NCBI GenBank assembly: GCA_008933995.1
Contig: WARS01000036.1
Coordinates: 6,486,419 to 6,550,418 of the forward strand
Direction: 5' to 3'
From: Datnioides undecimradiatus
Taxonomy: Eukaryota > Chordata > Actinopteri > Lobotiformes > Datnioididae
Length of the DNA stretch: 64,000 bases
Below, piece after piece: positions 6,594 to 41,857 of the stretch. Position numbers and translations under genes: made by a program. The stretch's first letter is position 1. The number at the start of each line of letters is the position of its first letter. The notes beneath the pieces are model-generated. The model ran no database searches and was not told where the DNA came from. It saw only the letters and a list, made by a program, of their open reading frames with translations.

Positions 6594-6919
6594 GTATTGT
6601 TTCCCTGATCTCTCTGGTTATCCTCTCCTACGACCGCTACAGCACTCTGACTGTATACAACAAGCGTGGGCCAAACTACCGCAAACCCCTGCTGGCTGTC
6701 GGGGGCTCCTGGCTGTACTCCTTGTTCTGGACAGTGCCCCCTCTGCTGGGCTGGAGCAGCTATGGCATAGAGGGGGCAGGAACAAGTTGCTCTGTGTCCT
6801 GGACGGTTCAGACAGCCCAGTCGCATGCCTACATCATCTGCCTCTTCATTTTCTGCCTGGGTATACCAATCCTGGTGATGATCTATTGCTATGGCAGACT
6901 GTTACTTGCAGTCAAACAG
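6594..6919 (+). CDS. tmtops: TMT/encephalopsin-type opsin, internal exon (end of TM3 to TM5)
   Basis: This exon encodes 108 codons plus a split first codon of a non-visual, retinal-binding G-protein-coupled receptor of the TMT/OPN3 opsin group, a light-sensing plasma-membrane protein expressed in fish brain and many tissues. It is bounded by a CAG acceptor (6591-6593) preceded by a pyrimidine tract and by a GTAGAG donor at 6920. It exits in phase 0. Visible landmarks are the YDRY motif at the end of TM3 (the D/ERY G-protein switch), a TM4 block with GGSWLYSLFWTVPPLLGW, then EC2 with SSYGIEGAGTSCSVSW. In EC2 the E aligns with the ancestral counterion Glu181 of rhodopsin and the C with the disulfide Cys187. 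TM5 ends in YCYGRLLLAVKQ. The split after LFG/before IVSL fits the TMT and OPN3 exon structure. The exact TMT subgroup (1, 2 or 3) cannot be settled here, and OPN3 proper is less likely. Confidence 0.9.
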
Positions 6920-14606: not shown

Positions 14607-14840
14607 GTGGGTAAGATCCGAAAGACTGCAGCCCGGAAGAGGGAGTACCACATACTGTTCATGGTCCTGACCACAGCAGCCTGTTACCTGTTGTGCTGGA
14701 TGCCTTATGGTGTCGTGGCCATGATAGCGACATTCGGCCCACCCAACATCATCAGTCCTGTGGCCAGCGTGGTGCCCTCACTATTGGCCAAGAGCAGCAC
14801 AGTCATCAACCCCCTCATCTATATACTAATGAATAAACAG
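14607..14840 (+). CDS. tmtops: TMT/encephalopsin-type opsin, internal exon (IC3, TM6, TM7)
   Basis: This is a 234-nt, 78-codon exon, phase 0 at both ends, between acceptor CTATAG (14601-14606) and a consensus donor GTAAGT at 14841. It begins VGKIRKTAARKREYH (third cytoplasmic loop), then TM6 with LLCWMPYG (the CWxP toggle-switch region). TM7 reads SLLAKSSTVINPLIYILMNKQ: the K is the Schiff-base lysine for retinal (Lys296 in rhodopsin numbering) and NPLIY is the NPxxY activation motif. Since all the residues needed for chromophore binding and activation are intact, this copy is probably functional. The reading frame joins cleanly to 6594-6919 upstream and to 20778-20993 downstream. Confidence 0.92.
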
Positions 14841-16182
14841 GTAAGTCAGCAACATGCGAGTGATCGGCTCAGTTTCATCACATTGAAAATGGAGGACAAT
14901 TTGACATGTACAACAGCTTTATTTACACGGTAAAAAAAGACAAATTACAACAGCTGAAATCATACAAATGGTCTATTTAAATATCAATTCAAGTGTAATA
15001 AGAAGAGAATTCACTTACAAACCAAAGTCAAGAAGAACACCCTAAGGCTGTTAAAAGTGAAACGGGACCTTCACTCTGATTCAGTGAGTCATCGTTGCCT
15101 CTTTTACCTCTTCCTCTTTTCAGGAACACTGCAGGAAGCTGCAGGAGGATAATGTAAAACTTAAACGCTGAACAATTTTTTCGAGGCAGTGTGGTGCAAC
15201 ATATCCCACAATACTGAGTAAAAACAAGACATGAAAAACAGGCCTCAAGAGAAAAGAGCGAGAGGCTAAGAGGGTAAAATGTAATGAACAGTGTCTGCAA
15301 ATGTGTTTTCTCATCTCACCCTTTCAGCACTGGTCAAACGTTTAAAGTTTTAGTACAGCGTCCTATATTTAATATTGGCAAAAAAATTATTGTCTTGAGG
15401 AGGACTGAAAATTAAATTATATTCGACTTTAAGTATCCTAAGCAATAGCACCTTAGAAGTCCTATTACTCAGAGTCCTCATCCCACGCTTCACGCACCCT
15501 GCTGAGACGTAGCTAAAAATGGAATTTGGCACAATATTAAGATGCAAAGATGAAGTTGCCAGAAGGCATTGCACTTAATCAAGTGCTCGCAGGGAACTAC
15601 TAGTAGCTGCACCGCAGCTGGATGTGATTTCCTCGTCCACAAGCATGCACTAAAATCTGCAAAAACATCACTTAAGGAAAAAAAAAAATCTCTTAGCACA
15701 ATTTCCTGTCACAACATTAATGACAATGGTGTCTACTTGCAGCACGGTACAGCACAGACAGTTTAAGACTCTTAGCCCTGATCCTGATTTGCATGCTCTG
15801 TGCATTGGAAAGTAATAAAAGTTATCAGAAATATACATGTACAATATGTTCAGGGTTTTTTGCACCTTCAGTGTTACAATCACAAGCAGTAAAACATTTT
15901 ATCATTTACCTCAACAGAGAAATGTAAAACCTACAGCAGAGCTGAGAACCAGCATGACTCAAAATGAATGGGAAATCTCCTTAAGCTTCAAAAAGGGTTT
16001 CTACAGTGTGTTTTTAAACCTCTGTTACAGTCCTAATACAGCTGCTGACTTTACCTGAATCCTTTTCAACAACTGACGCCACCAAACAGTCTATCTGAAA
16101 CTGGGGCTGGGTAACAAACCACACTACTTTATGCATTCTGAGCAAAATGCCTCTGTAACATCGATGCTCACAAAACGTCAAG

Positions 16183-16777
16183 TAGGGCTGGGTGATACAA
16201 CAATACATACATAAAACATGACTCCATCTGTCAACTGTCAGAGATATTGCCAAACAATTTCTGCCAATGCAGCTGCAAATCAATGTGGAAAACTGCTTTA
16301 TGGCAATATTAGATTTATAGGATTTTGCATCAATGTGATGAAATACCTTTGTCATGTATGTAATTCACTGAATTAGTCAATCCCATCTGGTTATTTCATC
16401 AACACATGCACTCACTTGCCAGTTTATTAGCTTCAGTTTGCTAAATGTTCTGCAGTCCAATGCAACAGCCCTTCACATAAACCTTCATGAAGGTTCTGAT
16501 TTTCTGTTTTTCATTTAGCTGTTTTACAGAAGTGTGTATTCAGCTGTATTATTAACTGTGACCCAGCATCTACAAAGTATTGACTTGTACAGAGAAGTGG
16601 GCAGGGCTGTTGTAATAGACTTACATTGGCACCTAATACTTGGTCGAATCCTTGTTTGTTTCCTTTAATGTAAATAAAAAAGTTCTTTTTTGTAGAAAAC
16701 ATTTTAAAATGTGTTATTTTGGTATCGACACAGTATGAATTTGTAACACTGACACATTTAGATGATACCCAGCCCTA
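16183..16777. mobile_element. Small non-autonomous inverted-repeat element (TAGGGCTGGGT ends)
   Basis: The left end reads TAGGGCTGGGTGAT and the right end is ATCATACCC-like followed by AGCCCTA, so an 11-bp inverted repeat, TAGGGCTGGGT, brackets 595 bp with no transposase. Inside the right end, GGTATCG-type sequence occurs (16721-16727), which fits a family common in teleosts whose ends read TAGGGCTGGGTATCG. No target-site duplication is clear, so superfamily is unassigned. A related GGGGCTGGGTAAC sequence lies just outside at 16102 and a fragment of the same family at about 40646. Confidence 0.55.
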
Positions 16778-17746
16778 CTCAACAACAAGTAACGTTAAGC
16801 CCCAGAATCATCTACATACTAGTACTACTACAGAGCCATCTAATTAAATGTACACCAGACTGTTCAAAGCAACAGTTCTCTGACATGGTTTCACATCTTA
16901 ATACAAACCACAACCAATGGCACAAGAACATTTCGTAGAATATCACACTTAGCAATAAAAATCTCTGCTATAGGCAAGATGTTTCTCGCTGGCTACAGCG
17001 AAAGAATCACAACCACACCTCGTCTCCACCCTCAACTAATACCTCTAGAGCTTGCTGCAGATGTGGCACTGACTGACTGTAAACATAAAAATCACCGGAG
17101 ACAAAGCAAATCTGATGGTATTACCAGTTCAAATTCCTCTTTTATAATCGTCTCCACACTGAGCTGCAGACCGGTACATACCAATATTAGAGGATTCAGG
17201 AAATATGAGACATTTATAGTTGTAGGAAATGATCTTCATGCTGTTACATAACAAAGACAAAAGAAATAAGCCTGCACATACGGAGAGCATACTGCAGTGC
17301 TGAGCTCCAGGGAGGGTTTGACCATTACACGCAGTGGTAAAATTACATTCAATAAAGAGTGAACTGTCAAAAAACAGGGGCTGGTGATTGCTGAGTGCAG
17401 AGCTAAGAATCCCCTGGTACAGCTCACCTCAGCAATATCAAGTGCTGCACAACCTCTTGCGGCAATTAAGCTCCATGTTACTGCAGTCCTGCCACAGTGT
17501 GTACTGCATGTATCTGACCAGTGACAAGGCAACCCGAGGAAAGTGTTCGGCTGACCACCAGGCACGGGGTTACGGCTGTTCTGAGCACCGGTTTATTCTC
17601 AAGATCCATTTTGGCCCCATCAACTTTGATGAACTTGAATAAAAGAAAAAAAGATCTCACTATTGGTAGGAAGAATCTACAAAGGACAACCAGTGCCTTC
17701 TGTCCTGTGAGCTTTTAAATGAGAGTCTGGATGAACAATCACCCTA

Positions 17747-17798
17747 AAAATTTCCCCGGTGTGGGACTAATAAAGGATATCTAAATCTAAATCTAAAT
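17747..17798 (+). mobile_element. LINE 3' terminus remnant
   Basis: The sequence AATTTCCCCGGTGTGGGAC, then TAATAAAGG, then a short ATCTAA tandem repeat, is the characteristic 3' end of L2/CR1-like LINEs in fish, which close with AATAAAGG and a short tandem tail. No reverse-transcriptase frame is seen upstream, so this is a severely 5'-truncated insertion in the plus orientation. The family is inferred from memory of such tails. Confidence 0.55.
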
Positions 17799-18439
17799 GA
17801 GTGAGAAACTGGTGGTACAGTGAGCTGGCTGGTTGGCATGCAGAAGGGAGTAGTTTAGTATTAACCTTAAAACATCAGCCTTCTAAAATAAACCCCTCAT
17901 GACAGAGTGAAACTTACGATTTCACAAGATGGCAAGGAATGGCAGACACTGGCTTCAGAGCATTGCAATGTACAGTATTAGTGAATGTGTGTGCGTGTGT
18001 GTGTGTTGGATTTATGACATTCAGCGTGGATGACTGCTTATTCACAACCCTTTGGGACCAGTAAAAAAAGGAAAGAAAATCACAAATAACCACCGTTATA
18101 AACAGTGGCATTTCCTTTAAGTGGAGAACCACCCATACTATTGAAAAACACAGAGTTTACACCATTGAAACACACCCAGTTATTGAAAATTTACTTGTCT
18201 ATCTAAAAACACTGATCTGTTGCTACCCTAGTCAGCTCCACAGCTAACGTGGCTCAGCTAAAGCAGAGAGAAACATCTTGGGGACTCTTCCCGCCAGTCT
18301 CTGGTCTAGTAAACCATCTTAATGAAGACAAGTTCTTTCAGAAGCCCCCATGTTGATCCTTCCCTGGAGGGCTATGGCTTATGTTCTTCATGGGTCTAAT
18401 CTGAAACTTCTAAGCTCCAGCCTCCTTGTCTCCAGTAGT

Positions 18440-18445
18440 TTTATT
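18440..18445 (-). terminator. Candidate ST6GAL2 poly(A) signal AATAAA
   Basis: TTTATT on the plus strand is AATAAA on the minus strand, about 77 nt past the ST6GAL2 stop codon. It would give a very short 3'UTR. Another AATAAA at 17592-17597 (minus) would give a roughly 0.9-kb 3'UTR, which is as plausible. Confidence 0.3.
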
Positions 18446-18521
18446 GCACCTCTCCCTTAGTCAGCCAGAAAAGGCCAGAGTGTGTGTGTCTGTTCGGGCT
18501 CAGAGGGTCAGGTTTCATATT

Positions 18522-18769
18522 TCAGATGTCACAGTTGACGGTGCTGAAGCCTGGAAGAGTGACCCGTCCCTTCCTCCTGAGGTCACTCTCGGGCCCTGTG
18601 TTGATCCTCTGGATCACGCTCTTCTCGTACAGGAGGGGATGGTAGGCACCCAGTGTGCAGGCAGCATCATAATAACGCTCGTGGTAGTGGCACAGATCCG
18701 TCTGCCTCATGGAGGGAATGTACTCGTAAACGTGCACCTGCTCGCACAGCGCCATCATCAGGAGGATGC
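18522..18769 (-). CDS. st6gal2: ST6GAL2 terminal coding exon (end of motif S, motifs III and VS, stop)
   Basis: Last coding exon, 82 codons plus TGA (18524-18522), residues 462-543. The acceptor on the minus strand is TTGCAG ending at 18770; the exon enters in phase 1, completing a split Gly462. It begins [17 protein letters not shown], the second half of sialyl motif S. Motif III is around HYHERYYD (489-496). YHPLLYEK follows, where His505 and Glu510 form the VS motif (HxxxxE); this His is the expected catalytic base. The protein ends [11 protein letters not shown]. The exon sits inside the last intron of the opposite-strand opsin gene. Confidence 0.96.
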
Positions 18770-20777
18770 CTGCAATGACAGATAGAAAGAACTAGCTCAA
18801 GACATGCAGAGTGTACACCAGTTAAAAGTTACACACATTCACATCTGAAAGCTGTCCAGCACTTGGGAGTCAACAGAGTAATGTAAAATTTTAGGAAAGC
18901 ACACTTTTTTGATGCCTGTGTAAGGAGAGGATTAATAACATTGGCATATCTGCTCATTCAATATGAGGCTAAAGCCAGCAGCTTATTAGCATAGCTTAGC
19001 ATAAAGACTGGAAGTAAGGGAACACCAACAAAATCCACCTAATCAACACCTTTAAAACTCATTAAATACATGATGTTTCATGTCTGCTCAATCCATCCAA
19101 ACAAAAAGTTGGGATTGGGGACTATTACTTGGCCAGGCACAGTTATTTTTGGTTCCCTGGCAACCCTGTGGGGACGTCGAGGCATCAGAAATTAAGTAGT
19201 GAACTTTAGGGCATGATTTATGCTAAGCTAAGCAGCTGCTGGGTGCAACGCTGTGTTTCAAATCATTTCAGCATACTGTACACATACATACCTTACCAGT
19301 CCACAAATAGGCTAGTATAATTATGCACTGATACTAAAATCAGTCAGGTAAAAAATGGCTGGGGAAATGTGTAATAGTCTTCTGCAGAGCGTGCACCTTT
19401 GAGAAAAACATTTATCGCAACATCTCCACTGAATCTACACAGTGTCAGAAGTCAGGGACGGCACTTGTACTGGACAGTCCTCCGGTGCAAATGTGATTTT
19501 AAGTGTCAATGCGAAGTTCATTTGTGCTGAAATAGTGCATACACGCTCAGCAAGATCCTCCTTTAGGTAAAGACAAAAATAGAACTGAATACATAATATA
19601 TGAAGACAGTGAGTTTCCCTGCCTCAGCATGCTCTGCATGTTGTCTTTAATTCACTGAGATACGCTGCTAACACGGAGAGCAGTCAGCTCCTGCATACAT
19701 CTGGTTGCCTTTTGTCATTTTTCATTCCACCTTGCTTTGTACATGGCTGCTGATCATTTTCTCTCTGGTGATTGTTATTCTGCTCACAACGCTCCTCCTT
19801 CTCCATTGCTGCTCTCTAGCATGATTACAAACATCACATAACCAACCAAAATCCTCCCTGCACAATGTGTAAGCGTGTTGTGTAAGCATGTGTTGAATTA
19901 CTTTGCTAAAACTTCTTCTCCACAGTCTTGGTAAGCTTGTTGGCTGTGCATTGGTTTCTTAATAAGATCCAGAAGTGTAGACTGTACATGTCGCCCTTTC
20001 AAGAAACAGTTTTCTCATTGTACACATCAGTTGTAGAGAAAGTCTCAGAGGGCCAAACAATTGCTCTTGTTTGTGGAAAAAAATGACCGTGATTAAATGG
20101 TACCTTTGGGAAAATTTTAATTCTTTATAACTTTTATCTCACTGTGCTTTTTACAACTGCACGTAGATTAGCCTTTCTGCACAATAATGCTGAGCTAATG
20201 GCCAAATAACATGAAAAATGCATAACAAACAGGTAACCTTATAGAACTGTACTCACTGCATTTTTCCTTAGTACAATCCCATTATTGTTCAAGCAAAGTG
20301 TGTGGACAAAAACCCATCTCGGGTTGTACAATTTAATCATGAAGCAAAAGAATGACCACAAAAGAGAAAGAAGAAATTGAGTCAACATGACTCTGTGCTT
20401 CGCAATAATCAGGAAACAAATTTTTAAAAAAGGAGCAAGCACTTACATTTCAGAGAGCTGCACTCAGACGTTTCGAACCAATGTGTTAAATGACCTCTGA
20501 GACTATACTAACCAGTGAGTAGACACCACCTTCTCTGACAGTGCAAAGGCCATTAAAGGACCATTTACTCCTCTCAAGTGGCACTACCTGTTGACTGTGA
20601 GGACATGAAAGTGCACTAAGGCATGATTTCTGCCTAATCAAACTCTGACCCATGTACCTGTAGCACAGGTCTCTCAGAGAGGGTCAAACAACGGTCAATC
20701 CACGCTGGATGATTCCGAGAACTCTAAGAGCCGGCGTGCTGTGCTCACATTATCTTCCTTCCCCTGGTCTTTCCCAG
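18770..20777. other. Region that is intron for both genes (ST6GAL2 last intron, opsin last intron)
   Basis: These 2 kb are intron of ST6GAL2 (minus strand, 18770-26337) and of the opsin (plus strand, 14841-20777). No exon is seen. About 18915-19290 is a dispersed repeat (listed separately). The opsin acceptor at the right edge has a CTGGTCTTTCCCAG tract ending at 20777. Confidence 0.65.
18915..19290. repeat. Dispersed teleost repeat, copy 1
   Basis: Contains TAGCTTAGCATAAAGACTGG (about 18993-19012), AACAAAATCCACCTAATCA, CTTGGCCAGGCACAG and TTATGCTAAGCTAAGCAGC (about 19218-19236) in the order known for a very abundant repeat of percomorph fish. The two related blocks, AGCTTAGCATAAAG and TTATGCTAAGCTAAG, are inverted relative to each other. 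Partial copies occur at about 44550-44590 and 61065-61330. Family name not assigned. Confidence 0.6.
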
Positions 20778-20993
20778 TTCTACAGGTGTTTCCTGATTCT
20801 GTTTCACTGTGATCACTGGTCAGTGGAGAATGGCAACACATCAGTGCCCTCCAAGACTACAGTAATCCAGCTCAACCGCAGAGTCTACAGCAACACAGTG
20901 GCATGCACTGCCCAAATCTCCGCTAACGCTATCAACCAGTGCTGCAGCACCCTGGCCACAAAGCACACAACCCCGCCTGAGGTCACGGCCTGA
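20778..20993 (+). CDS. tmtops: TMT/encephalopsin-type opsin, terminal exon (helix 8 and C-terminal tail)
   Basis: This exon encodes 71 codons plus TGA (20991-20993). It starts in phase 0 after a strong acceptor (CTTTCCCAG), directly continuing NKQ of the TM7 exon with FYRCFLILFHC. That is the amphipathic helix 8, with cysteines that are usual palmitoylation sites. The tail is Ser/Thr-rich, with clusters that could be kinase/arrestin sites, and contains a TTVIQLNRRVYS segment of the kind I associate with TMT opsin tails. Cysteines are unusually frequent near the end (NQCCSTLA). The exon lies antisense inside the last intron of ST6GAL2. Candidate poly(A) signals downstream are ATTAAA at 21769-21774 and AATAAA at 22668-22673. 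Confidence 0.88.
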   Translation, partial: FYRCFLILFHCDHWSVENGNTSVPSKTTVIQLNRRVYSNTVACTAQISANAINQCCSTLATKHTTPPEVTA

Positions 20994-21768
20994 GCCTGAA
21001 TATCCTCACCAGGAAAAACCCAAGCAGCGACGGCTCAACTTGTTGGCTACACCTGCTATGTCAACCACTATGGAATGTGGACTGAAGCATGATGCGTATA
21101 GAAAGTAAATGTACATAATGTGTGAGCCCGTGTTTGTACAGAAAGATCTTCTTGTGTGTCCACTGAGTTTGAGCTTTCATATGTGTTTTGACAATTGCGA
21201 GACACTGAAGCATTCATCTGGAAAACCCCCCACATTTTACATTATATAGCCAAAGGTATGTGTACACCTGAGCATCACTCCCATATGTGACTGTGTTGAA
21301 CATCTTATTCTTAAACCTCCAGCATCAAAGTGTTGTTATAACAACCCGAGGTGCACCCAGAAAAGCTTTGGGAACCTGGCTGCAGGGATTCAGTCACAAT
21401 GTGAGGTCAGACTCTGATGCTGGGTGTTAAGGCCTGGCTTGCAGTCGACTTCACACCAAAACTTGATAACTGTTGAGGTCAGTGCTCTCTGCAGGCCAGT
21501 CAAGTTCCTCTACTCGAAATTTAAAAACAATTTCTTTCTCACTTTGTGCACGGAGGAGATGTACTGTTGAAACAGAATGATCTTCCTAAACTGCTGCAAG
21601 AAAGTTGGAAGCACATTATTGTCCTGAAGTGTCATTGTGCGTTTTATCATTAAGATTTTTCCTAATTGGAACAGTGGAACACAAACCACAGACAGATCTA
21701 AAAGCACATTTTCTGTTAAACACAATGCAGCCAGAGTCAAAACGTTATGGAAAGTGATGTCTGAACAG

Positions 21769-21774
21769 ATTAAA
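21769..21774 (+). terminator. Candidate opsin poly(A) signal ATTAAA
   Basis: Common variant poly(A) hexamer, 776 nt past the opsin stop codon. AATAAA at 22668-22673 is the nearest canonical alternative that I found. Confidence 0.25.
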
Positions 21775-22667
21775 AACCAAGGTGCACACCATCTTTATTG
21801 AGGTAAAAATGTGTGTTTCTATTCCCTTCCAATGTGATCACTGACAACTAATAATCCCAGTCAATTTCAAACACACTTTATGGTCTACGCTTACGCTATA
21901 TTCCTTAATTCCTTAATATATTCCTTAATATTTTTTTCAATCATGTTTTCTATACACCAAAAACCTGGTGTCTATTCTCTTTGTGATTGTGCTGCTGTAA
22001 GTGTCAAAGCTAGTCAGGTTTGTGCTTTGTCAGTGTCTAAGTGGATTGATGTGTTCCTAAAAACTCTCACACAAAGACCTCACGCTGAATTTCACCTTTA
22101 TCTTGTATATATGTACTCAAAATGTTCAAATTTCCGCCGGCATGGTCGGCTTTAGTTTTATTTGTTTATTTTTATTTTTGTGTTAGTGCCCCCTATTTGT
22201 TAAAATGCATGATTTTGATGCATGTTTCTTTGTACATTTGATCTGAGAGACAGATGAACAATTACGGTGCCGGGACTAAAAACCACTGAGGCCATGGCAG
22301 GTTTTGTCCAGGACTTTTGGCCTGTGAAACTGTGAAGATGGTCACAACCACCAAGGTTTTAAAGGAGAGGATGCATGAGGAAGGGGATGTGGCACCTGTT
22401 TTTAGTTTCACATGCCTGGATGGGAGATGCCACTCTGAGACTAGAGGAAAGCACTGTGCAGATACAAAGTACATGGACAGGACTTGGTCGCAATGCACAA
22501 GCTGACCTTCTCACTGCAGGGTGGTGATGAGACCCTGATGATGAAAGGACAAATGAGTATGCTGGACACAGACTTGAGTCAGCTCCAGCTGTGAATGGAT
22601 GCTAACCACTGAGTGACTCAAAGCGACAGGCCATTTATTGTATTTCATTGTTGGTTTTAGTGGTTTT

Positions 22668-22673
22668 AATAAA
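22668..22673 (+). terminator. Candidate opsin poly(A) signal AATAAA
   Basis: Canonical hexamer 1.7 kb past the opsin stop codon, in the plus orientation; it would define a long 3'UTR lying wholly inside the ST6GAL2 intron. Confidence 0.3.
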
Positions 22674-25600
22674 TATTATTGCTGTGGAAGAAAATTCAAG
22701 GCATTGCTGTATTTAAAAAAAACAAACAAAACACACACACACATGCTGGAGGTTCTGATACAAAAACAAAAACTCTGACGCTGAGAGTAAGGCAAATTTC
22801 TTACTGACAGCGAATTGATCAACAACATGAACCTGCCACGTCTGTTTTTTCAGTGAAGCTAAAAGAGCAGTAGAAATCAGTGGAGATTTGAACGTTGGCA
22901 ACACCTAATTCACAAGATGTTTGAAAACCTGACAGTTTCAGAAAAATGTGAGCAACCATGCATCCATTTGTTTTTGTTCTCCAAACTGCATTATTCACTA
23001 CTCTGTAGAAGACAAGGCAGATTCACTTTTATAAGAAACAGTATCAATTCGCCATAAACCGAAGATTTACATAAATGCAGTAAAGACTGGTATCACATTC
23101 TCATCTCTGTTATGTCAAATGACTTTGATTTGGTAGCGTGAGCTTAATTTGTGATGGCACAAACCCCATCATGCCATCAACAGTGCACAGTGCAGCTCCT
23201 CCCTCCTGTCATCATGACTGCACTTCTTCCAAAAGGCAAAGGAAATTACACAGCACCCACAATTTAACACATAACCGTGTGTTTGGACATAAATAAAGGC
23301 ATATTTGCACTCCTTTGTAACTCTGCCATGAGTGACAGGAAGAACCAATTATTTTTTGAGAAGATGTCATTTTACAATTTGGAATAAAGTCGGTTTCCAG
23401 TAATGGACACAAATCTGACAGAGTGGGGGACTGTGTTTGCGCTTTAGGCTACAACAATATACATCCTGCATCTAACAGAGTTAATCAGAAGTAGCTTAAT
23501 TAAGTATGAAGCAACATGACGAGAAAAAACAAAAGACCTGAGATGCTGGCCTTTTAATTTCATTAATATGGAAGTAGGAAGCAAAGCCTTTCAATTTAAT
23601 CACACATGTTGATGTTTTTGTTTTTAATTGAAAGCCTTGGCGACGTTCATCCAGGCCATCTAATAGGAGACAGATTTAGGCCAGTGTAGCAGAATATAGT
23701 CCCAATAAACCGAATATAGTCCCAAGGGTTAATTTACTTCCATAAGATCAAACTGACCTCCGTCTGCTCTGTGGTTAAACTGTGACATCACCTGGTGTTG
23801 TCTACGGTTGTTATTATTGTTCTGTTTAGCTGCTTCATTACTTTTTGAGTTTGTTGATGACCAGTGCATTTGAATTATCTGAACTATCTGAACTATTTCC
23901 ATAATATTTCGATGAAATGTACAGATAATTTGCTTTGATAAAGTTCTGAAAACTAATGAATAAAATTCAAACATTTTAAATTGTAAAAAGGTAAACAAAG
24001 TTAGACTGGGAGTAATTCACACAAGAATTAAAAATCCCTATTAATATGATTCAAACTGCCTCATATTTGAGCTTTCGTAATTAAAGTCTCATGTTTATTT
24101 ATGTTCATATACCAGAACTTTCAACAGAAAAGTGAAGAAACTTGTATTACAGAAATAATTCACTTTATCAAATAAGATGGTTAAGCTTTTAAATTAAACT
24201 CTACATAAACACATCAAATCAAATGACTTTTCTGTGACAACAATATTAGAAATGTCATTTTAAAAAAATCCATTCAAAAACTTGTGCAAGGGCTTTGTTA
24301 GAATTACTGCAGAAGAATAACTTATTTACTAATAAGCTTACTTTTTAACCAATGAACAAACAATTCAGAATGTTAAAACTATTTAACAAATTGTTTCACA
24401 ACATTCAAAAAACACTGACTTAAAATATACTTTAAAACTAAAAAGATGCACACCAGACAATTATAATTAGATTTTGCCTTTAAAAAGCAGCTGAAAAAAG
24501 ATCTTTTTATTATATAACAGTATTCAGAAAAGGAAAAACACAAGCGCTTTATTATTTTTAATTAATTAAATGTCAATGCTGTAGTTATAAAAAGTGAAGG
24601 TGTTTATATTCTTTTTAAAATTAATTTAATTACCAGCTAGAATTACCACTTCACAGTTGTTTGCCTCAGCCAGCCAACTATGCTGATAACATTCATGTCT
24701 GTTCCAACTCAAAATAATATAAGCTGTTAGAACTTCTCTTTTTATTCCCTTAGGCATTTGGGTAAAAAATGTGTTTCATTAAGATACTGTGACTTGTTTT
24801 TAATTATTATTCTTATTATTATTGTTAAAAATATGTATTATTTATTATGAACAAAAATAAATACCTTAGACTGAATCATTCTCTCTGCCGTCACTGACCC
24901 ATCTATAGTCTGCAGACTCTGCAGTGCAGAGGATCAATCATAATGACTTCGGTGATGCCTCCTGCAGCGCCTCCATGTGAACATTTTGTTCTTTTTGACT
25001 ATGTGACAACCTAATTCTCATCAGCTGCTGCTTGTCTTTAAAGGGTTAATAACTGGTATTTTAATAATAACAATTTGAAAGGAATGACAGTTTGAAAGGG
25101 ATTGCTGCTGCTACTACTACTACTACTACTAATACTAACAGTACTTATACTGCTACAGTTAATATCATCATTTAGCTGTCCAGCACACAAATTTACGGTT
25201 TCAGTTAATCTCACTTCAGCTGTTTTCAGGGAAAAGCTCTGAAAACCCACCATGAACTACCAACATACAAATGAAAATGAGGATTTATCAGCTAAAGAGA
25301 CAGATACTTCCCCCAGGAACTAAAAGAGAGTGAAAAATTGGACTTGAATTAATCAGTATGATACAAACACGACTCCAACTGAATGATAATGCGCTGGATG
25401 CATAAAAGAGCAACTGTTTGATGAGTTAGACATACTGACTTAAAAGGTAGTGATAACTGGTCTCTGATGCCACCCGTTTCCAGCATGGCCAAAGTCTAAT
25501 GTTAATTAGAAAATGTAAGCATATTAACGCATTAAACTAAGACAGGAAACGGGGTACACATTAAAACGGCTGCATATTAGCTTTGTCATTGTGAGCATGT

Positions 25601-25945
25601 TGCCAAAATGACATTAGTATTTGGCCAAATGCTGCACTGTGTCCAAGCACAAACTCAGCATGGCTGCAGTCTTTTTTTAACATTTGTCTAAATCAAATAG
25701 CTCAGTATTTTGCTTTTGTCTAACAGTAACAACCTAAGACTGCACCAAGGTAAAGAAAAAAGATTCTTGATATATTTGTGTCTAATCATGAAATAGTGAG
25801 GATCAAAAGTAAGAAAAATGGTCTGTCGCTCAGAGGCGAGCAAATGTTCTTGCCATGATTGGATGCTTTATGTTTTACTGTTGTGCAAGGAGGGAAAAGA
25901 ATATTGAAATGTCTGAAAATTATAGTGAGGCAGACTGACATGAAG

Positions 25946-25994
25946 TACACACATATATATATACACACGCACACACACACACGCACACACACAT
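25946..25994. repeat. CA/TA microsatellite
   Basis: Compound (AC)n(AT)n(AC)n tract with occasional G interruptions, in the last ST6GAL2 intron. Confidence 0.9.
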
Positions 25995-26146
25995 GCTGGA
26001 GAGTCTCTAATGTGAGCTTACAGTGGTTACATTTCCATCTTTCTCTACATAGATGTGCTGCTTTGGAGTGCATAACAGCCACATTGAATGCTGATAATGT
26101 CACTGTGCATGTTGAAGATAAAAATTTCATCACGTGCACATGTCTG

Positions 26147-26206
26147 TTTGTGTGTGTGTATGTGTGTGTGTGCGCGCACGTGTACACGTGTGTGTGTGTG
26201 TGTGTA
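26147..26206. repeat. TG/CG compound microsatellite
   Basis: Compound TG run interrupted by GCGCGCACGTGTACACGT, an alternating purine-pyrimidine tract of about 60 bp, about 130 bp from the donor of ST6GAL2 exon 26338-26512. Confidence 0.9.
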
Positions 26207-26337
26207 TCTTTGCACCTATAACTGCTCCAGGACAAGCAAGGAAATTGAGAGATAAGAGTACAGAAGCAAGTACAAGAGAACACACGAACACTGCATGCAT
26301 ATCAGCTGTATGTATGCATGTACGTGTGTGTATTCAC

Positions 26338-26512
26338 CTATGAAGCCAGACGAGGGGGGATTGGGCTGGATATTCTCCTGAGTGTTGCTCTGAATCACAT
26401 CCCAGAGTCTCCACACGTAGCTGGGGTGAAGGATGTAGAAGGGCTGGCCAGGATGGAGCTTGCGGTGCTCCACGTATGGACCAAATAGATTATAGTCGGG
26501 ACTGGCGTACCA
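26338..26512 (-). CDS. st6gal2: ST6GAL2 coding exon (catalytic domain, first half of motif S)
   Basis: This is a 175-nt exon: 58 codons (residues 404-461) plus the first base of Gly462. Acceptor TTTGGCAG ends at 26513; donor GTGAAT begins at 26337. It starts [20 protein letters not shown] and ends NPPSSGFI, where PNPPSSG opens sialyl motif S (about 453-475), which binds both the CMP-sialic acid donor and the acceptor. The stretch [11 protein letters not shown] and the WRLWDVIQ segment match the ST6GAL family between motifs L and S. Phase 0 in, phase 1 out, consistent with the flanking exons. Confidence 0.96.
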
Positions 26513-28671: not shown

Positions 28672-28773
28672 CTTGTGTAAGTTGACGGTGTAAGGTGCAG
28701 GATCCCAGGCCACCAGAGTCACATTCTTGTAGATTGAGCTTGTGTTGAACCGATGCTTTGGATTGGCCAAAAT
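28672..28773 (-). CDS. st6gal2: ST6GAL2 coding exon (catalytic domain between motifs L and S)
   Basis: This is a 102-nt, 34-codon exon, phase 0 at both ends (residues 370-403). Acceptor TGTAAAG ends at 28774; donor GTATGT begins at 28671. It reads from [17 protein letters not shown] through [17 protein letters not shown]; the VAWDP block matches the VWDP block of ST6GAL enzymes. Two N-glycosylation sequons are present (Asn379 in NTS, Asn386 in NVT). Confidence 0.95.
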
Positions 28774-29379: not shown

Positions 29380-29477
29380 CTGCGAGTTGATGATGCGGAT
29401 TGTGGTTTTGTTCCCCACATCCCGCTCGTATCCCTCTGTAGGTGCAGCATTGAACCGTAAAACTGCATCGTGAGTAT
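29380..29477 (-). CDS. st6gal2: ST6GAL2 coding exon (second half of sialyl motif L)
   Basis: This is a 98-nt exon, entering in phase 1 (AT completes Asp337) and leaving in phase 0 (residues 337-369). Acceptor TTTCAG ends at 29478; donor GTGAGT begins at 29379. It encodes [20 protein letters not shown], then [13 protein letters not shown]. That is the distal half of sialyl motif L, which contacts the CMP-Neu5Ac donor; [10 protein letters not shown] and VGxKTTIR are hallmark residues. A sequon occurs at Asn359 (NKT). Confidence 0.96.
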
Positions 29478-29886
29478 CTGAAAGGCAAAGTGCAGACCAA
29501 TTCAGAGGAGGAAGCTAATGAACTGACCCTGAGTTATGCACAAAACTATAGCTGAGTTGAATTTTTAATGTGGTAACAAAATTATGTTTTTGCCCTGATA
29601 TAGTACACAACAACCTTTCTACAAAAGAGATATTCAAACCAGGTAATTTATGTTAAAATGTAAAAAAATATATATATATTTCAATGTCAAGTTGAAAACT
29701 TTGCACATAGAATGTCTCACATTAGCCAGAGCTAGTCATGGTCTTGATGCAGCCACCACTGTCCTTTACAAAGACTGACTTATCTCATTTTACAGAGACA
29801 ACTTCAACAAGAGAAATAAGTACATAAAGGCACACTGCAGCTGTCTGAAACATGCACACAGTCATTTGCATATGAATGAATTTAAA

Positions 29887-29909
29887 ACACACACACACAC
29901 ACACACACA
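29887..29909. repeat. (AC)n microsatellite
   Basis: Perfect 23-bp AC run in a ST6GAL2 intron. Confidence 0.95.
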
Positions 29910-30629
29910 GCATCAAAGTGCTTGTGGCAGAGGTCACTATGACAACACAAGGACTGCAGTGACATAAATTCTGATCTTATTGACTCTTAACAACATCATC
30001 AACATCCGGCAGAAATAACCTAAGTGCTCTCCAGCTGTTCTCTCTTGTAGCTGAGGAGCTACTACTGGGAAAAAAACATGAAAATAAATAAATAAAAACA
30101 AAAAACATATACACATGTACACAATGGGATCCAGACGTCTGAGACAATGTTAAAAAAAATTACAGCACAGAAGTTCAGACGACACTTAGGTGGACTTGAT
30201 CATTTCATCAGAAGCTTATTCAAGTTGCTTCACTTGCAGCCAGTGTTTACCTGTTGTACAGATCATCACTTACAAAGCAGCATTGTGACACTGATAATCA
30301 TGTCATCAGAATAAAGTGAATTGTTATTCTAAGTATTCTACAACAGCTGCACTAAAGGTTTCTAAGGCGACAGTGCATTGAACTCTAAAACAGTGGATCA
30401 GTGGATCAAAGCACAATCCGGCATACCAACAATGACCATGTCATCAGAATATCGATATTCAAGCTCTGTTCCCTGAGATAGAAAAGCGACTTCACCACAG
30501 ATACAGAATTTGCTTAATGAAGAAGGCAAGACGCCAATCAGCAAGTACATGTAGGCGTTTCTAAAAAAAAAATCTTCTCAGTAGATGAGAAGGTCAAAAG
30601 CTTGATAAGAGACACAACAGCAACCATCA

Positions 30630-31080
30630 TTTGACTCTTGATGACTGGGAAAAGGTCCTGATTACTGATGAATCCAAGTTTTTTAGGCAACAAAAGGGTG
30701 TATGTAAAGTAAGGAGATGAACGGGAGACAGAACAATGGCGCAGTGCCGCAAACGACCAAATATTCAAGTCGGGGGATGATTTGCTTGAACTGCAGTTGG
30801 ACACCTGCACCAAACTGACTCCAACCTGACCAACTAGCAGCACCAGTTCACTCTTTAGAGACATGTTAGAACTTCTGCTTTGCATCTTTGTGGGGAACCA
30901 TTTTTGCTTCAGCAGCATAATGACACCTCAAAGCTTTGCAAGAAGGACTTGCAGACCAAAGAAGGCCAAGAAGGCCTGTCTGTGATGGACTGCTCAACAG
31001 TCGCCTGGCTTTAACACTATTAACCATTCATAAGGGCTTTTAGATCGACTTCTGGGGTCGATTCAAGCTCAGATGTTCTT
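30630..31080 (+). pseudogene. Heavily decayed Tc1-like transposase fossil
   Basis: Translated on the plus strand in shifting frames, this stretch shows the Tc1 catalytic core in order. DWEKVLITDESKF (from about 30643) contains the first catalytic-Asp block. A vestige of the arginine-rich and GGG-FA block follows (about 30705-30790), then a LHLCGEP-FLLQQHND block (about 30883-30930) in which the second catalytic D of the usual QQDND is replaced by H. SKLCKKDLQTKEG and a VMDC remnant come next, then sequence around 31035-31070 where the PIELLWD segment would fall. There are many stops and frameshifts. It is an old, inactive insertion, unrelated in age and orientation to the younger element at 38331. 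Confidence 0.7.
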
Positions 31081-34000
31081 AAATGAAAAGTGGGACGATC
31101 TAAATTCTAAGATATTCTGAATTTGTGTACATATTTTACATGAAATCCAACATGAAATCCTCAGCTTGATGGATGGTTGTAATAATAAGAAACTTGTAAC
31201 GTGGACGTCAGAGGATCGATGCATCAGTTTCACAGATCCTCCTCTTGTGTTGATCTGACATCAGAATGGATGATCCTCCAGCTTTTGATCTGATACTCCT
31301 CCATCACTGCCATCAGTCGACTGTTACAACACTAACTGGCATTCACAACAACACTGCAAACAGTCAGCAGACATGTGCTCACTAGCTTGACATTGAGTTT
31401 GCCCTCCTGCTTTGATGTGATACTGCAGACATCGGCCTGTTCCCTGCAGGGCGACACCAGACGATGGATTCACAGGAAGGTTTTCCTAAAGCAGGAATCC
31501 TGTTCCTTTGTCTACATCTGGCTGAATTACAAATTAATCAGTGTTACTTTAACTGAAGAGCAGCACATTATTATTAAGCTGGTGTGAAATAATAGTTTTC
31601 TCTTATAAAAACTGAGATTTAGTTTAACCTGTCTATAAGTATATTTGTCATTTCTATGTATCAATTTATCCCTCTTTTATTTGATCAATTTCATTGTACA
31701 ATGTATTGACTATGTTTCTTATGTATAAATGTAATTATTAATTAGCACTCTGTCTTGTTTCATTTTTTTATTTATTATACTATTTTTATGGTTGCAGTAT
31801 TTTTTGAACTTGCATTCCTCGTTTGTCCTCCAGCGTGTTTTTGTGTTCCACTCTTAATGATGTTTTGATGCACTGCACTACTATTGACTGTCTGCAGACG
31901 AGCTAGTTTTACACCCGTGTTTGCCATCTCTGGTAATGATGGGTAATGATGACACATCGTAGCCGCCTCCAGCTGTTTTCACCTATTTAACCCGTCTTTT
32001 AACCCGTGACTCACCACTGAAGCATTTTATGAGCCCTGTGTAGCGCAGAGCCAAACGCGCTGCTTTTGTCACTGTTGTTTTTTTCATTTGACGAACATGT
32101 CGATCACTTTATAATGATAATGATAAGTATGAAATATCAAAATGACAGTCTTTTCCTTTAATAACTGATAGAAATGATTATATACTTTGTTACTGTGCTA
32201 CTAATTTAAAAGACTTTTATTACCTATACAGCATCGAACAATTGTAAATGCTTGTAAATGCTACTAGAAAGGGCTTCATACAGTAAGGACATGATGGGAA
32301 AATCACTCAAACTCTGATTGACATCAATTATGTAATGTGCCACAGGCTATCAGTTGCACACTGTCAAAATGTGCTCACGATAAATCATTTCTATGGATAT
32401 TCTTTTCTGAAACCAGCGATTTTCAATCTTGCCTGACTGTGATCCCATAAAATAAAGCGATGCTTCACTCATGACCCCCTTTTCTCTGATTCCTTCACAG
32501 AAGAGCCCCAAGGTTTAAAACTGTGCTTTACAAGAAACAGAACTCGTACAAATATACCCAAATATGAACAGTAAAGAGTAAAAAATAAAAAAAGCAATCA
32601 TCAAATTTTGACTAATGACTAAAACAAGTACATGTTTCCCTGGTTGAGAACTGGTCCAGACTGATCTCATTTACACTTTAGAATTACACTGTTAGCGCTA
32701 AGTGTTTATCTTTTATTGCTTGAAAGCTTTTATTTTCTCCTTCCAGAGTCTCTGTAACTCCACATCCTCCCCAAAGTGAAACAATGTGCACCCAGCTTAA
32801 GAGGAGTTGGAAAGGATCATCAAATTATCATATTTTTAACATGTTTGACCCTCATATGGCTTTGACCTTGGTTAGGAGCCTTTGAGTTTTCTCTTCACAG
32901 AAACCAGAAAATCAGACAATCAAATCACTTCTTATAACCTACTGAGTTTGCAACATGTTACACTTGTTTTTCCACCATTTTCCCACGGCACTTGTTTGTA
33001 GGTTTGACCTCAGCCTGACCAGGATCAATACTCCACCCTCACCTTGTGTTCACAATTATCCTTTCTCTCTGGCCGACATTTCTCACGAGAGAAACCACAT
33101 TTCTTTTTTCTTTTTAAATAATATACTAAAGGTAAAGCCTAACTAATACATAACTGATGATGATTTAATTCACGAATTAATGCAGAATCTACCATGAACT
33201 CGTTACTAATCATTAACATCAATCAAGTGATCAAGTCTATCTCGGATTAGTTTTAGTTATAAATGTTAATTAACAGTTACTTCACACACTGACTTTGAAC
33301 CAAATTATCTGGATTGCATAAAGCACTTTACATTACACTTTATTTCAAACTTATGTATTTGCTCATCTTCTCTGAAACCATAACAGTACCTGTTCTCATA
33401 AAGAGAAGCTCTCTTTTTAACATCAAACTTGCCTGTCAGACGCAAACATTTACATAATGAAAATATACATAAATAAACACGTAAACAAAATTTTACATGA
33501 GTAAAATCCAGCTAACTTCATCACATATCACTTGACTGAAGTACCTGATTAAATATTATTTAACTGATGGTCTATTATATGTGAACTAATCATATAAATT
33601 GATTTGATCATTAGTTAATGGTGAGCAGCAGGAGTTCATGATACAGCCTGCATTAAATCTCCATCAGATACGCTTTAGTTAATCTTCGCCTTTAGTAAAT
33701 GAGAAAATGTTTTCATTTATACCCTGATAAATAAAGTGTTACCCCTGTAATCTAATACAATCTTAGTGCAGTATAGATTTGTATAGATTTATTCAGATGT
33801 ATGTGTGTGCTCGCGTGTTTGTACGCACACTTTTTCTGGCGACTTCAGCATAAAAGCCGAGTTGTTAATAGGAACAGCTGAATGTAAAGCTGGACTTTAT
33901 TTCACAGTAAATGTACAGTTTACCAACGATGCGTCCCCTGTGGTTTAAAGTTGTGCGTTTCCTTCATCATCAGCATTTCCTCAGTGGCAGAGCTGCCATA

Positions 34001-36176
34001 AAGTATGTGAAGCTGGTGACATACACAGTGATTAAACTACAGTATTACAACGCCATTATTCATGCTGTGTCACAGAGAGTTCGATTAATTCAGTGCCACA
34101 GTAAAAAGTGCATTCATCAGTGTCCACGAGATTAAACTTGAACCCACTGCTGCTGTCAATGTAGTTTGTCCACGTTTGACATGTGGCGTTCCACCTCTCA
34201 CTGAGTTAATTTTACAGGCAGAGATCGACACCGCTTAATGCACCGCACTAAATACAGAGACACTGCAACGAGCACAGACAACAACACTTTCCATAAGAAG
34301 TGAACACATCTGGGACACACTTTGTTGTTGCCATGGTTTGTGATTCATGGAGTTACTGATGTTGGAAAATGAGATGAAATGTACATTTCTTTTGGGTTTT
34401 GGGTCCTTTTAGATAAACGTGTTTCCGCCCTGCTTGAGCACGTGCATCAGAGCCACCTGCTGACAGTTTTCAGTCTTCTTTGATTTGTGTGTCAGTTTTC
34501 TTAATTTGTTTGTGTTTTGTCAATTTGCACGTTCTCTGAAGTAGCAGTAAGCTCACTGTCAGACTTCTACTAGAAGTCAGACTTCTAGTTCAAGTGATAC
34601 AATTACTTTTATCTTCAGTATAACTCTGCTCCTGCAGTTTGGATTTAATTTCTTCACATAAAAAAGTGTCTTTACATAAAAAAGTGTGGATGTCAAATTG
34701 GTCTGACGCATAAAACCTGACAGAAGCAGCTGATGCAGCAGGCTGACCGATATCTGGCTGCAAATACATTTTGCCATGTCAAGTTTTAACCATCTTTTCA
34801 AAATTAAGCCATTTTTGTTTTTGTTTTGTTAGCTAATATTTAGTTTTATAACTACTGAACTACTCTGGCATCAATCATGTCTCTAATCATCACTGAACAT
34901 GACATGCTTCATATGCACTTGTCACCTTAAATTGGTTTTGTGTAAAAGTAATTAACAAAATAATGAAATAAAAATAAAGCAAGGCATTAAATGGTTTTGA
35001 TGCAATTACATTTCTAGCCTGTTCTAGCCTCCAGCATTAGCAGAGGAGGTCTTGCTGTCCACATGTTGGCTATGGGATGTCAAAGAGCTTTAAGGCTTTT
35101 CAAGGTGCTTCTGAACATATATATTCAACCTTCACACACTAAGTTTCTTATAATGACTTTTAAATAAAAAGGTTTTTGTCACAGCTTTCCCATTTGTTCT
35201 TGTTTCACAGCTTCATCTTTCTCATTTGATCTTTTCTGTTCTTTGTTTCCTTTCTATGTTTTGATTGACTGTGACTTTTGCTTGTATTTCATCCCTGTGA
35301 GGTACTTTGTGCTGCGCAAATGGAGATAATTATCACCATCATTTACAGGAGAACTGAAGGGCTTATTTCAAGAAGACAATCAAAAGAAAACTGAGATGTG
35401 ATTAAATTGTAATGATCGACTGTGGGGCAAATATCAAAACATAAAATGAGAGGCGTTGAAGCTTTTTGTGTCACTGTAACTGGAATATTTGGCTTTTGGA
35501 CAGTTAATTGGAAAAAAAAACCCATTTCTAGGTGTCACCTTGAGCTCTGTGAAAACTGAGTATTACTCAGTGAGTATTACTATTTTCTGTTGTGTGCAAA
35601 ATGAAGCTGTTTTGATGTTTCATGCTGTGAGAATATGCAAACTAAAGGCAGAGCAGCATGAAAACACTGTGGACACATACAGGAGGTGGACAAACAAGCA
35701 GAGAGGTAACAAAACAACATTGTGGTTTATTGCCAGTAAAAGATGTCTGTGTTTATAACACTCCAATAACTCTGATGGCATCATTTTTGTGGCAATAGAG
35801 GAACACGATCCCAATGAAATGTGCTGTGTTTTTAACATATACCGGTATCTCAGGGTTCCCAAGTCAGATCTGTTTTTATTTTAATAAATACTACCACTGG
35901 AGGGCAGCAAGTCAGAACTGTTCAAATTCTGCACAACTATAACTGCAGTTACAAGGACAACAACAATACAAAGTCATGTTTACTTTGTAAAAACAAAACA
36001 AAAAAAATCTTAAATCATCTGCCAAGACTCAAAAGAGTCAAAAACAATGAACACTTTGGAGATCTGGTTGAATAATCCTGTCATGTGTCAGCGCTATTTC
36101 CCCCCCCCCCCAATCAGTGTTGGTGGGGATGCAGATTATCTTGTTCACCACATGATGGCAGCCTAACATCACTGGC

Positions 36177-36233
36177 ACGCACACATGCACATGCACATGC
36201 ACACACTGGTGCGCACACACACACACATACACA
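36177..36233. repeat. CA-rich compound microsatellite
   Basis: Repeats of GCACAT and CA units with a short GGTGCG interruption. Confidence 0.85.
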
Positions 36234-37700
36234 CTGAACTAAACCAGAGCCTCAGTTTCAAAGCTCTCACAGGATGAACTCAGCTCTGCAGACACAGAAA
36301 ACCCCAATTTTTTCTAATTCTAATCTAAATGTCAGCCGACCCACAAGGGGCACAGCAACAGCAAAGAGAATGATTTTCATACTCATCTTTGGGTGATTTG
36401 TCACAACTCACAGCCGCATAATGTAGCTTTTGATGCAGTGCAGCCTTTTGGGAAGGACGGAGCGGGTGAGGAGAAGTAGACGGATTGGGATCAATGTAGT
36501 TTGATTTCCCGTTCAAGTCAAGTCTGAGAATTAATGTAACAAAGCCAAGCTTTTCCAAACGCTGCGAGGCTGCTCCGTAATTAATCGGCTCTATAACCTT
36601 CATCTCATTCGTCAAGTAACTAAGTCCCCTGTCAAGCGAAAACCTCTTTTTGAAGAACTGATTACCCTGATGATGACACACTGAACCAATACCCTGCTGC
36701 TGTTTGACATAAAGACGTATGCAATTGGCCTCAGAGAAGAAACGGTCATGAATTACAATTCTTTGGACTTTTCCACATTCTAATAATGACTCTCTGATGG
36801 TATATTTAAGGCTAACAATAGCTTTTTAAACAAGATATGGACTTCCAGGAACAGGAAAGGCAACAGTTGTAAAGTTGGTGCTAAAAAGACACATTCGCTT
36901 CCTTTGTTTAAGAGCATGTGCATATGGGTCACATTGTTGGCCAGAGACCAAAAACAAACATGGGAGGATGATGATACATCAGCAGAGATTTTAGAAGCAC
37001 CTGCAGAGTTTAAGTCCAAGGCCTGGTGCCCAAAACTGAAATCTGCCTCTTGTCTCTTTGCTTGTTAAAATGAGGACCAGTGATGATCTTCAGGCTCCAG
37101 GACTCAAACCAGAGACACCAAAGGCTCCTTAATATTCACCATAGAGGGACTTGTAGAACTTAAACACATCTTTAGTCTGTATTTCTTTCACTTTGCAGCA
37201 AATCTGTTTGCACCACCAGCTTTATAAATAAATTTGACCATCTAGAGATTTCTTTTGCAACGGGGGAGCGAGTGGAGGCATCAGAGTTGAAAGACTGCAA
37301 CGCTAATGTTTTCACTGACACAGCACCTCAAGTTAATTCCACTGTGAACACAAGGTCAAGTGCAGATGTAGATTCGCATCACCTGGGTCTGTCTGATTTG
37401 CTGTCTGTCTGCTTCCCTTTCTGGGGCAATATTATCTGGGTCAGCGAGTGTCTACAGAGCGCTCTCAGCATATAGACAGACTATAGAAATATAATGCACA
37501 AAGCCAGAGCTCTTTATATTAAAGCTTTTGATTGCTCTGAGCAGTCAAGCACACGAGGAAATGCAAAGAGGCTATACGTGATGCAAAGGAGCCTGATTGG
37601 TTACCAGAGGGGGTTCTGTTTTTTTCAAGTGAGCCATCTGTCACTGACTTCACACTCTCCCCACCAACCAAAGAGCTGCCAAAGTCTCTAAACCAGGAGT

Positions 37701-40848: not shown

Positions 40849-41857
40849 CGATCTCTTTTCCCAGTCCTGAGCGCAGGATGGCTCCAGCCGAGGTGACGAC
40901 CGCACAGCTCTTGAAGCTGCTATGGTCCTGCCGTCTGTGCAGCTGCTCCAGGGGAAGAGTGGGCACAAGACGAGCCCAACCAAGCGAGGAGAAGGGCTGC
41001 TCCGACCCGTCCACCGTCCTCAGCCGGGCCTGGGCTTTCATTTGACACAGCAGCTCCTTCGCACTCTGGGCGGCACTGCGATGCCCTTGGTAGGACACAT
41101 GGTGTTTGTTGGCACTAACATAGTCCTTCATGGCGCGCTGCAGCCGAGGACTCAGCATGCCGGCGGACACACGGCCCCGCCACAGTCGCTGCACCACAGA
41201 GGCCGACTTGGAGAAGTAATATTCCTCCAGATCAGAAGAGTCACCGCCGGCCCTCCTGCCTGCTGCAGCCCTCATTCTGTTTTCCAACTCTTCATCCTCA
41301 TTCTCCCTCTCATCTTCATCTTCTTCCTCCTCCTCCTCTCCACCACGGTAGTGTGTGGTGCTCATGTGGTTCTGGTACTCTGTGGTCTGGGATGTTCTCT
41401 CACGACTCTGGACTCCGGGATCCGAGTGAGAACCCACATTTTCTGTACCAAAGGAGGACCAGGCAGCCAGGCTCTGTGGGTCTAGGTAGTCCTGATGGCT
41501 GGCTTCCTGGCCACCATAAATGGCATACGGAGCACTATTGGGGCTGTGGGTTACCTCCAGGCTGAACTCTGGGGTTGTGGGGCTGGCGGAGGGCTCCGGC
41601 TCATCTCTGGGGTAGGTTGTGGTTAAGGTGGAAGCAGGTTCAGGACGGGAGCCCAGGTTGGCCTGCTGTTGATGGGAGGCCTGTATAGAAGCCAGGCGAC
41701 GGGTGTCAGGGTGCTGGGAGAGTAAAGAGCCAGCAGAGGTCAGTGGCTCATTCACACGAGCATCCAAGAAGTAGGAGAGGAGGGCGAGGAAGAGGAGAAC
41801 CCAGGCCAGCATTCCCACCAGCACCAGCCTCCGCCACTGCCTCATACTGGACTTCAT
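40849..41857 (-). CDS. st6gal2: ST6GAL2, first coding exon (beta-galactoside alpha-2,6-sialyltransferase 2)
   Basis: ST6GAL2 is a type II Golgi enzyme that transfers sialic acid from CMP-Neu5Ac to the 6-position of terminal Gal (or GalNAc) beta-1,4-GlcNAc on glycans. This exon gives residues 1-336 plus one base. A short basic cytoplasmic tail (MKSSMRQWRR) precedes a signal anchor at about 11-31 (LVLVGMLAWVLLFLALLSYF). A long Pro/Ser/Thr/Gln-rich lumenal stem follows (about 35-205) with a striking acidic run at 174-192. The catalytic domain begins near 210 (DLEEYYFSKSASVVQRLWRG). The exon ends inside sialyl motif L (CAVVTSAGAILRSGLGKEI, 318-336). Donor GTGAGT at 40848. With the other four coding exons the frame is uninterrupted at 543 residues, close to human ST6GAL2 (about 529) and much longer than ST6GAL1 (about 406). 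The start is the first ATG of the exon; 90 nt of 5'UTR precede it. Confidence 0.96.

Follow-up and report, generated by a model that had tools for sequence, protein, structure and literature searches.

The closest described counterpart of the locus analysed here is in chicken, where a four-exon TMT2 opsin (cTMT) adjoins st6gal2 and has its exon 4 within an st6gal2 intron (Kato et al. 2016; PMC5115664). The synteny of cTMT with uxs1 and st6gal2 is given there as common to zebrafish TMT2B and, as data not shown, to frog TMT2; flycatcher and lizard TMT1 are placed between st6gal1 and gpr35. In chicken, 3' rapid amplification of cDNA ends yielded a three-exon short form (cTMT-S) beside the four-exon form (cTMT-L); only cTMT-L gave a light response in a cell assay, and the Ensembl chicken entry matched the short form (PMC5115664). 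We analysed a 64-kb piece of contig C468 of the fish Datnioides undecimradiatus (hereafter the window), in which an opsin gene and ST6GAL2 lie tail to tail with their last exons interlocked, and searched the genome (581 Mb, 497 contigs) for related loci. The arrangement is already in print for the orthologous locus and the window holds a known kind of arrangement; what is new is the retention of the interlock in duplicate within one genome. No earlier report of two interlocked copies retained in one fish was found in the literature covered, most of it open access, and the text of the PLoS Biol 2013 TMT paper contains no mention of st6gal, synteny, genome duplication, TMT2 or isoforms.

Two genes interlocked at their 3' ends

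The terminal opsin exon lies inside the last ST6GAL2 intron, and the terminal coding exon of ST6GAL2 lies inside the last opsin intron, on the other strand (Table 1). Reading frames, phases and AG/GT splice borders are consistent in both genes. This reciprocal interlock was the core of the original prediction, which had been made from the letters of the window; its coordinates hold, and its confidence in both exon assignments was well placed, as frames, phases and splice sites fit and the interlock is repeated on another contig, C483. The prediction had also put the overlap of the two pre-mRNAs at no less than 2.4 kb without contact between coding exons, which agrees with an antisense overlap of 2472 nucleotides (nt) between the two coding ends and with none between coding exons. 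When joined, opsin exons 2–4 are open to one terminal stop; the five ST6GAL2 exons give 1632 nt, or 543 codons and a single terminal stop, 336 of these codons lying in coding exon 1.

The gene names given in the prediction are likewise supported, by matches to Pfam 7tm_1 and solved rhodopsin (PDB) for the opsin, and to Glyco_transf_29 (GT29), below its cut-off, and solved ST6GAL1 (PDB) for the partner. The alignment of the spliced opsin with rhodopsin runs across both exon junctions, including exon 3/4; exon 3 bears the retinal lysine, aligned to that of rhodopsin, and the helix 8 cysteine column matches as well. The 7tm_1 fold, the lysine and the cysteine mark the predicted product as a non-visual opsin. 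Exon 4 alone has no Pfam match. The gene has four coding exons with conserved junctions, exons 2–4 in the window and exon 1 as a match at C468:6482586-6482846, approximately 3.6 kb to its left. A chance origin of the exon 4 assignment was rejected: a helix-8-like opsin start, searched with a hand-written pattern, occurs in frame after AG at two sites in the 49,160 nt 3' of opsin exon 3, the assigned exon being one of them, and, most importantly, the interlock is found again on C483, where third codon positions hold an excess of differences in the comparison. Read-through past the exon 3 donor (14841-14933, + strand) gives 30 residues and then a stop, and, beyond an acceptor rich in pyrimidines whose last base is 15123, the opsin phase continues for a tail of 15 codons (15124-15171, + strand); either could yield a candidate short opsin form.

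For ST6GAL2, exons 1, 4 and 5 were searched singly against Pfam; the first and last scored 18.1 and 22 bits against GT29, below the 23-bit cut-off, and exon 4 alone had no match. Over exons 2–5, identity is 68.1% between the window gene and its C483 counterpart, compared with 60.8–61.3% to a third locus on C285 (61.3% for the window gene), where the stretch AVVSSAGSLRYSGLG resembles solved ST6GAL1. A long stem is a trait of ST6GAL2. The window gene has a long stem, and its nearer relative of the two is on C483, not the ST6GAL1-like gene on C285; by its sequence it is assigned to ST6GAL2, not ST6GAL1.

Table 1. Coordinates of the interlocked genes in the window and on contig C483, and of AATAAA hexamers in the window.
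Feature	Locus	Position	Strand	Remarks
Opsin exon 2, 326 nt	window	6594..6919	+	Pfam 7tm_1 E 8.9e-15; splice sites; length as in C483 copy
Opsin exon 3, 234 nt	window	14607..14840	+	phase 0 at both ends; Pfam 7tm_1 E 6.3e-10; donor CAG/GTAAGT
Opsin intron 3	window	14841..20777	+	holds last ST6GAL2 coding exon on other strand
Opsin exon 4 (terminal coding), 216 nt	window	20778..20993	+	starts FYRCFLILFHC, ends TGA; acceptor CTTTCCCAG/TTC
AATAAA, first canonical hexamer past opsin stop	window	22668..22673	+	pattern only
ST6GAL2 coding exon 1, 1009 nt	window	40849..41857	-	start codon, membrane anchor, long stem; PDB ST6GAL1 E 1.7e-11; donor at 40848
ST6GAL2 exon 2, 98 nt	window	29380..29477	-	DAVLRFN motif; splice sites, joined frame
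ST6GAL2 exon 3, 102 nt	window	28672..28773	-	splice sites, joined frame
ST6GAL2 exon 4, 175 nt	window	26338..26512	-	splice sites; 63% identical at C483:126550-126720
ST6GAL2 last intron	window	18770..26337	-	holds opsin terminal exon on other strand
ST6GAL2 exon 5 (terminal coding), 248 nt	window	18522..18769	-	ends TGA; Pfam Glyco_transf_29 E 1.3e-4
AATAAA, candidate proximal poly(A) signal of ST6GAL2	window	18440..18445	-	77 nt past stop
Opsin exon 1	C483	near 121.8 kb		
Opsin exon 2	C483	122663-122988		
Opsin exon 3	C483	124059-124292		
Opsin exon 4, 249 nt	C483	125337-125585		
ST6GAL2 exon 5	C483	125167-124920	opposite opsin	
ST6GAL2 exon 4	C483	126720-126546	opposite opsin	
ST6GAL2 exon 3	C483	126936-126835	opposite opsin	
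ST6GAL2 exon 2	C483	127386-127289	opposite opsin	
ST6GAL2 exon 1	C483	from 128412	opposite opsin	

A second interlocked copy in the same genome

Genome searches returned two matches for opsin exon 4, 24 for opsin exon 3 and three each for ST6GAL2 exons 4 and 5; seven of the 24 opsin-like matches were followed and the 17 weaker ones left aside. The matches on C483 form one collinear set in which exon order, strands and phases equal those of the window, with opsin exon 4 again within an ST6GAL2 intron on the opposite strand, and each of the two frames stays open up to a single terminal stop. Between the two loci, six exons agree in length (326, 234, 98, 102, 175 and 248 nt) and in phase; lengths are unequal for opsin exon 4 (216 nt in the window versus 249 nt) and for ST6GAL2 coding exon 1 (1009 versus 604 nt). 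Protein identity is 63–81% over the four interlocked exons and 50–84% over all matched exons, with 65% over 46 residues for opsin exon 4 (C483:125337-125474) and 70% for ST6GAL2 exon 5 (C483:124926-125174). When each of the six exons compared is read in its own frame, third codon positions hold an excess of differences in every one (at first, second and third positions, 13/8/21 over 44 codons of opsin exon 4 and 20/14/43 over 81 codons of ST6GAL2 exon 5); because the differences between the copies concentrate there, the two genes appear to be under constraint as proteins.

The two opsins are also each other's nearest relatives among the loci compared: over exons 2 and 3 they are 80.6% identical, versus 54.6–63.4% to four other TMT-like loci and 39.3–42.8% to an OPN3-like locus. 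In a FastTree tree of this genome's opsins, in which C477 was represented by exon 3 only and two loci by an incomplete exon 2, they group apart from the four other TMT-like loci with a support of 0.992. Since the same interlock stands at both loci, the arrangement is older than the duplication that separated them. The simplest reading of these sequences would be that one interlocked pair was doubled and both copies survived. The doubling was probably the teleost genome duplication; if it was a segmental duplication instead, a recent date is unlikely, given how low the identity is.

The interlock was seen at these two loci. Searches with ST6GAL2 exons 4 and 5 found three ST6GAL loci (window, C483 and C285), none of them a second ST6GAL1 copy; the ST6GAL1-like gene on C285 has a last intron of approximately 220 nt, and a 20-kb stretch around it (154 bases of it unread) gave no match to an opsin exon. 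No ST6GAL exon was found at E <=0.01 near the TMT-like opsins on C477, C482, C389 and C493 or the OPN3-like opsin on C13 (20 kb each), and the stretch taken for C477 lacked matches to opsin exons 2 and 4. In a search for other vertebrate sequence, opsin exon 3 gave no relative in a collection of genome contigs. The TMT-like opsin on C389 (9296882-9303545) has a large last intron of about 6.7 kb. On C493 (1605192-1605621) opsin exon 2 matches in two pieces some 130 nt apart, as would be expected if this copy had gained an intron or were broken there. A weak opsin exon 3 match (E 0.002) at C483:108041-108250, approximately 14 kb from the second opsin copy, is a chemokine-receptor-like stretch that resembles ACKR3.

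Rfam (gathering threshold) and tRNA scans of the window gave no matches. Two overlapping open reading frames in different frames (38653-39736, - strand), within the ST6GAL2 intron at 29478-40848 that separates coding exon 1 from exon 2, resemble a Tc1/mariner-type transposase.

Non-coding sequence and 3' ends

Comparison of the two loci by blastn gave nine collinear blocks (E <=2.6e-5), every one of which corresponds to all or part of a coding exon and reaches no more than about 35 bases beyond it, and five further matches (E 0.027–0.52) that are not collinear. No collinear non-coding similarity was found in the overlap by blastn between the copies, although short elements could escape at such divergence. 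Because only coding exons stand out in this comparison, a conserved antisense or silencer element in the overlap is without support, and the blastn result counts weakly against a conserved antisense element. The span of the interlock zone is 11,497 nt in the window versus 2,253 nt on C483, and the minimal overlap between coding ends 2472 versus 666 nt.

The 3' ends were examined by hexamer scan only. In addition to the AATAAA past the ST6GAL2 stop in the window, one lies 89 nt past the stop of the C483 gene; by background, an AATAAA turns up in 9.3% of 106-nt stretches at the first locus and in 7.2% at the second. The hexamers at 77 and 89 nt are fair candidates for a short ST6GAL2 3' end. On the opsin strand, an ATTAAA at 21769 precedes the first AATAAA past the opsin stop.

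Persistence of the interlock and comparison with known systems

Given the above, we consider it probable, at roughly 0.7, that a TMT2-type opsin and ST6GAL2, tail to tail with interlocked last exons, represent an arrangement of old vertebrate origin, present twice in this fish, that has persisted mainly for structural reasons. Each pre-mRNA would be spliced on its own, with the partner's exon transcribed antisense and removed together with the intron that holds it. Any breakpoint within the interlock would sever the last exon from at least one of the genes, so that the pair could dissolve only by gene loss; persistence would then come mainly from this breakpoint constraint, and a gene would escape only through loss of its partner. 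Placental mammals keep ST6GAL2. Together with the reported lack of TMT genes in eutherians (PMC5115664), this state would fit escape by partner loss. Any functional coupling would most likely act via the choice of opsin 3' end: an opsin transcript ending early in intron 3 would never enter ST6GAL2, and transcription of the full-length form would have to cross the 3' end and last exon of ST6GAL2 in antisense. The three-exon cTMT-S of chicken may, in our own reading, be such an early-ending form (PMC5115664).

Several points weigh against this explanation. The C483 ST6GAL protein has a much shorter stem (408 versus 543 residues, with coding exon 1 shortened as given above), so that the likeness of the copies does not extend throughout. 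A search with hand-written motifs for uxs1, which covered the window, 20 kb on its left side and 40 kb surrounding the C483 copy, found nothing, and the TMT2 label itself derives from synteny and the closeness of the two copies. The isoforms and 3' ends in this fish are predictions. Opsin-strand AATAAA hexamers in intron 3, up to the ST6GAL2 stop, number seven in the window and three on C483, above Markov expectation (p 0.031 and 0.0185; for the other strand, p 0.037 and 0.276), but such counts are also reached by ordinary stretches of these sequences, in 10.6% and 5.6% of cases; early polyadenylation in opsin intron 3 is therefore unsupported by the sequence, and these hexamers were dropped as evidence for an early-ending form. 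The tmtops gene names also point to paired retention of each of the three TMT types in zebrafish (PMC9596584), so that retention of the TMT2 pair would need no interlock; catfishes are reported to lack tmtops2a (PMC9596584).

Alternatively, the interlock might be a neutral relic that formed accidentally in an early vertebrate and was then merely kept, with no coupling or retention effect beyond ordinary linkage; the confinement of recognisable conservation between the copies to coding exons and the free drift of the interlock zone in length favour this, but most vertebrate overlaps are not conserved among lineages (PMC2151771), which makes its presence in chicken and in both fish copies unusual, and we regard this explanation as somewhat unlikely. 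Another alternative is a regulatory switch: polymerase collision or antisense RNA in brain cells transcribing both genes would give anti-correlated output, possibly under light or clock control. Both copies do overlap, and published descriptions place each gene in neural tissue (retina and brain for cTMT, PMC5115664; the central nervous system for st6gal2, PMC5000683); however, blastn detects no collinear non-coding similarity in the overlap, and its length differs nearly fourfold between the copies. We consider a switch distinctly improbable; the coupling that the prediction had suggested, by transcriptional collision, antisense RNA or splice and poly(A) site choice, possibly dependent on light or clock, is hypothetical.

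Closer to the structural explanation is an extension in which the interlock of a TMT opsin with an ST6GAL gene would predate the two early vertebrate genome duplications, TMT1-ST6GAL1 and TMT2-ST6GAL2 being the surviving halves, and would couple the fates of the genes, neither of which could be removed or moved whole without harm to the other. Among the ST3Gal and ST6Gal duplicates of the teleost event, only st6gal2-r and st3gal3-r are reported to survive (PMC5000683); in this extension the ST6GAL2 duplicates would have survived with the lock, and the non-interlocked ST6GAL1 would be left without a second copy. This report would agree with a lock that shields duplicates from deletion as well, but the sample is tiny and the other TMT types seem to keep their duplicates too, and we judge the extension unlikely. 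As for an assembly error misordering the exons of two ordinary neighbours, a case that the original prediction had itself named, its probability is close to nil: the second copy rejects it, as the same order occurs at two loci on different contigs, whose divergence is too great for a single misassembly to have been copied, and also in chicken (PMC5115664).

The arrangement is real, old and unusual. The prediction had called it uncommon, which is a fair description: in an early survey, based on the assemblies then available, non-nested intron/exon overlaps numbered 161 for zebrafish and 160 for human, and overlaps of any kind common to chicken and zebrafish, or to chicken and fugu, numbered 13 and 22 (PMC2151771). 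Conservation between human and mouse is reported to be better for convergent than for divergent overlaps (PMC2330155). An interlock common to fish and birds and kept twice after duplication offers a natural test of whether overlap geometry preserves synteny and duplicates. It also calls for caution in annotation, as the full-length opsin depends on an exon inside another gene, which is easily overlooked.

Among known systems, OPN3 and KMO reportedly form a tail-to-tail overlapping pair at human 1q43, as described by Halford et al. in 2001. That pair resembles the present one in joining a related opsin to a convergent neighbour and differs in that the partner is a gene other than ST6GAL2; in this genome, a search with Pfam FAD_binding_3 for KMO gave seven matches, none on the contig of the OPN3-like opsin. 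With the convergent coding-sequence/intron overlaps (PMC2330155) and the intron/exon overlaps (PMC2151771) the locus shares antiparallel genes that meet at their 3' ends, each with a coding exon in an intron of its partner, whereas reciprocal interlocks and the retention of duplicates are not singled out in the accessible text of those surveys. TR alpha and Rev-erb alpha are also tail to tail, with a short form that stops before the neighbour and a long form that enters it, but there the terminal exon of the long form overlaps a partner exon, coding sequence included, whereas here the coding exons lie apart (PMC4569393). The TR alpha 2 exon is moreover restricted, being absent in platypus and not expressed in marsupials (PMC4569393), in contrast to an interlock common to fish and chicken. 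The nearest likeness remains the chicken TMT2-st6gal2 locus, with a four-exon opsin and its exon 4 in an st6gal2 intron both there and here; the junctions there lie at 662 and 895, those of zebrafish at 694 and 927 (PMC5115664), and with both ends counted this makes exon 3 234 nt long, the length found here. The difference lies in number: for chicken one copy is reported, its interlock mentioned in a figure legend in the accessible text, and the fish carries two.

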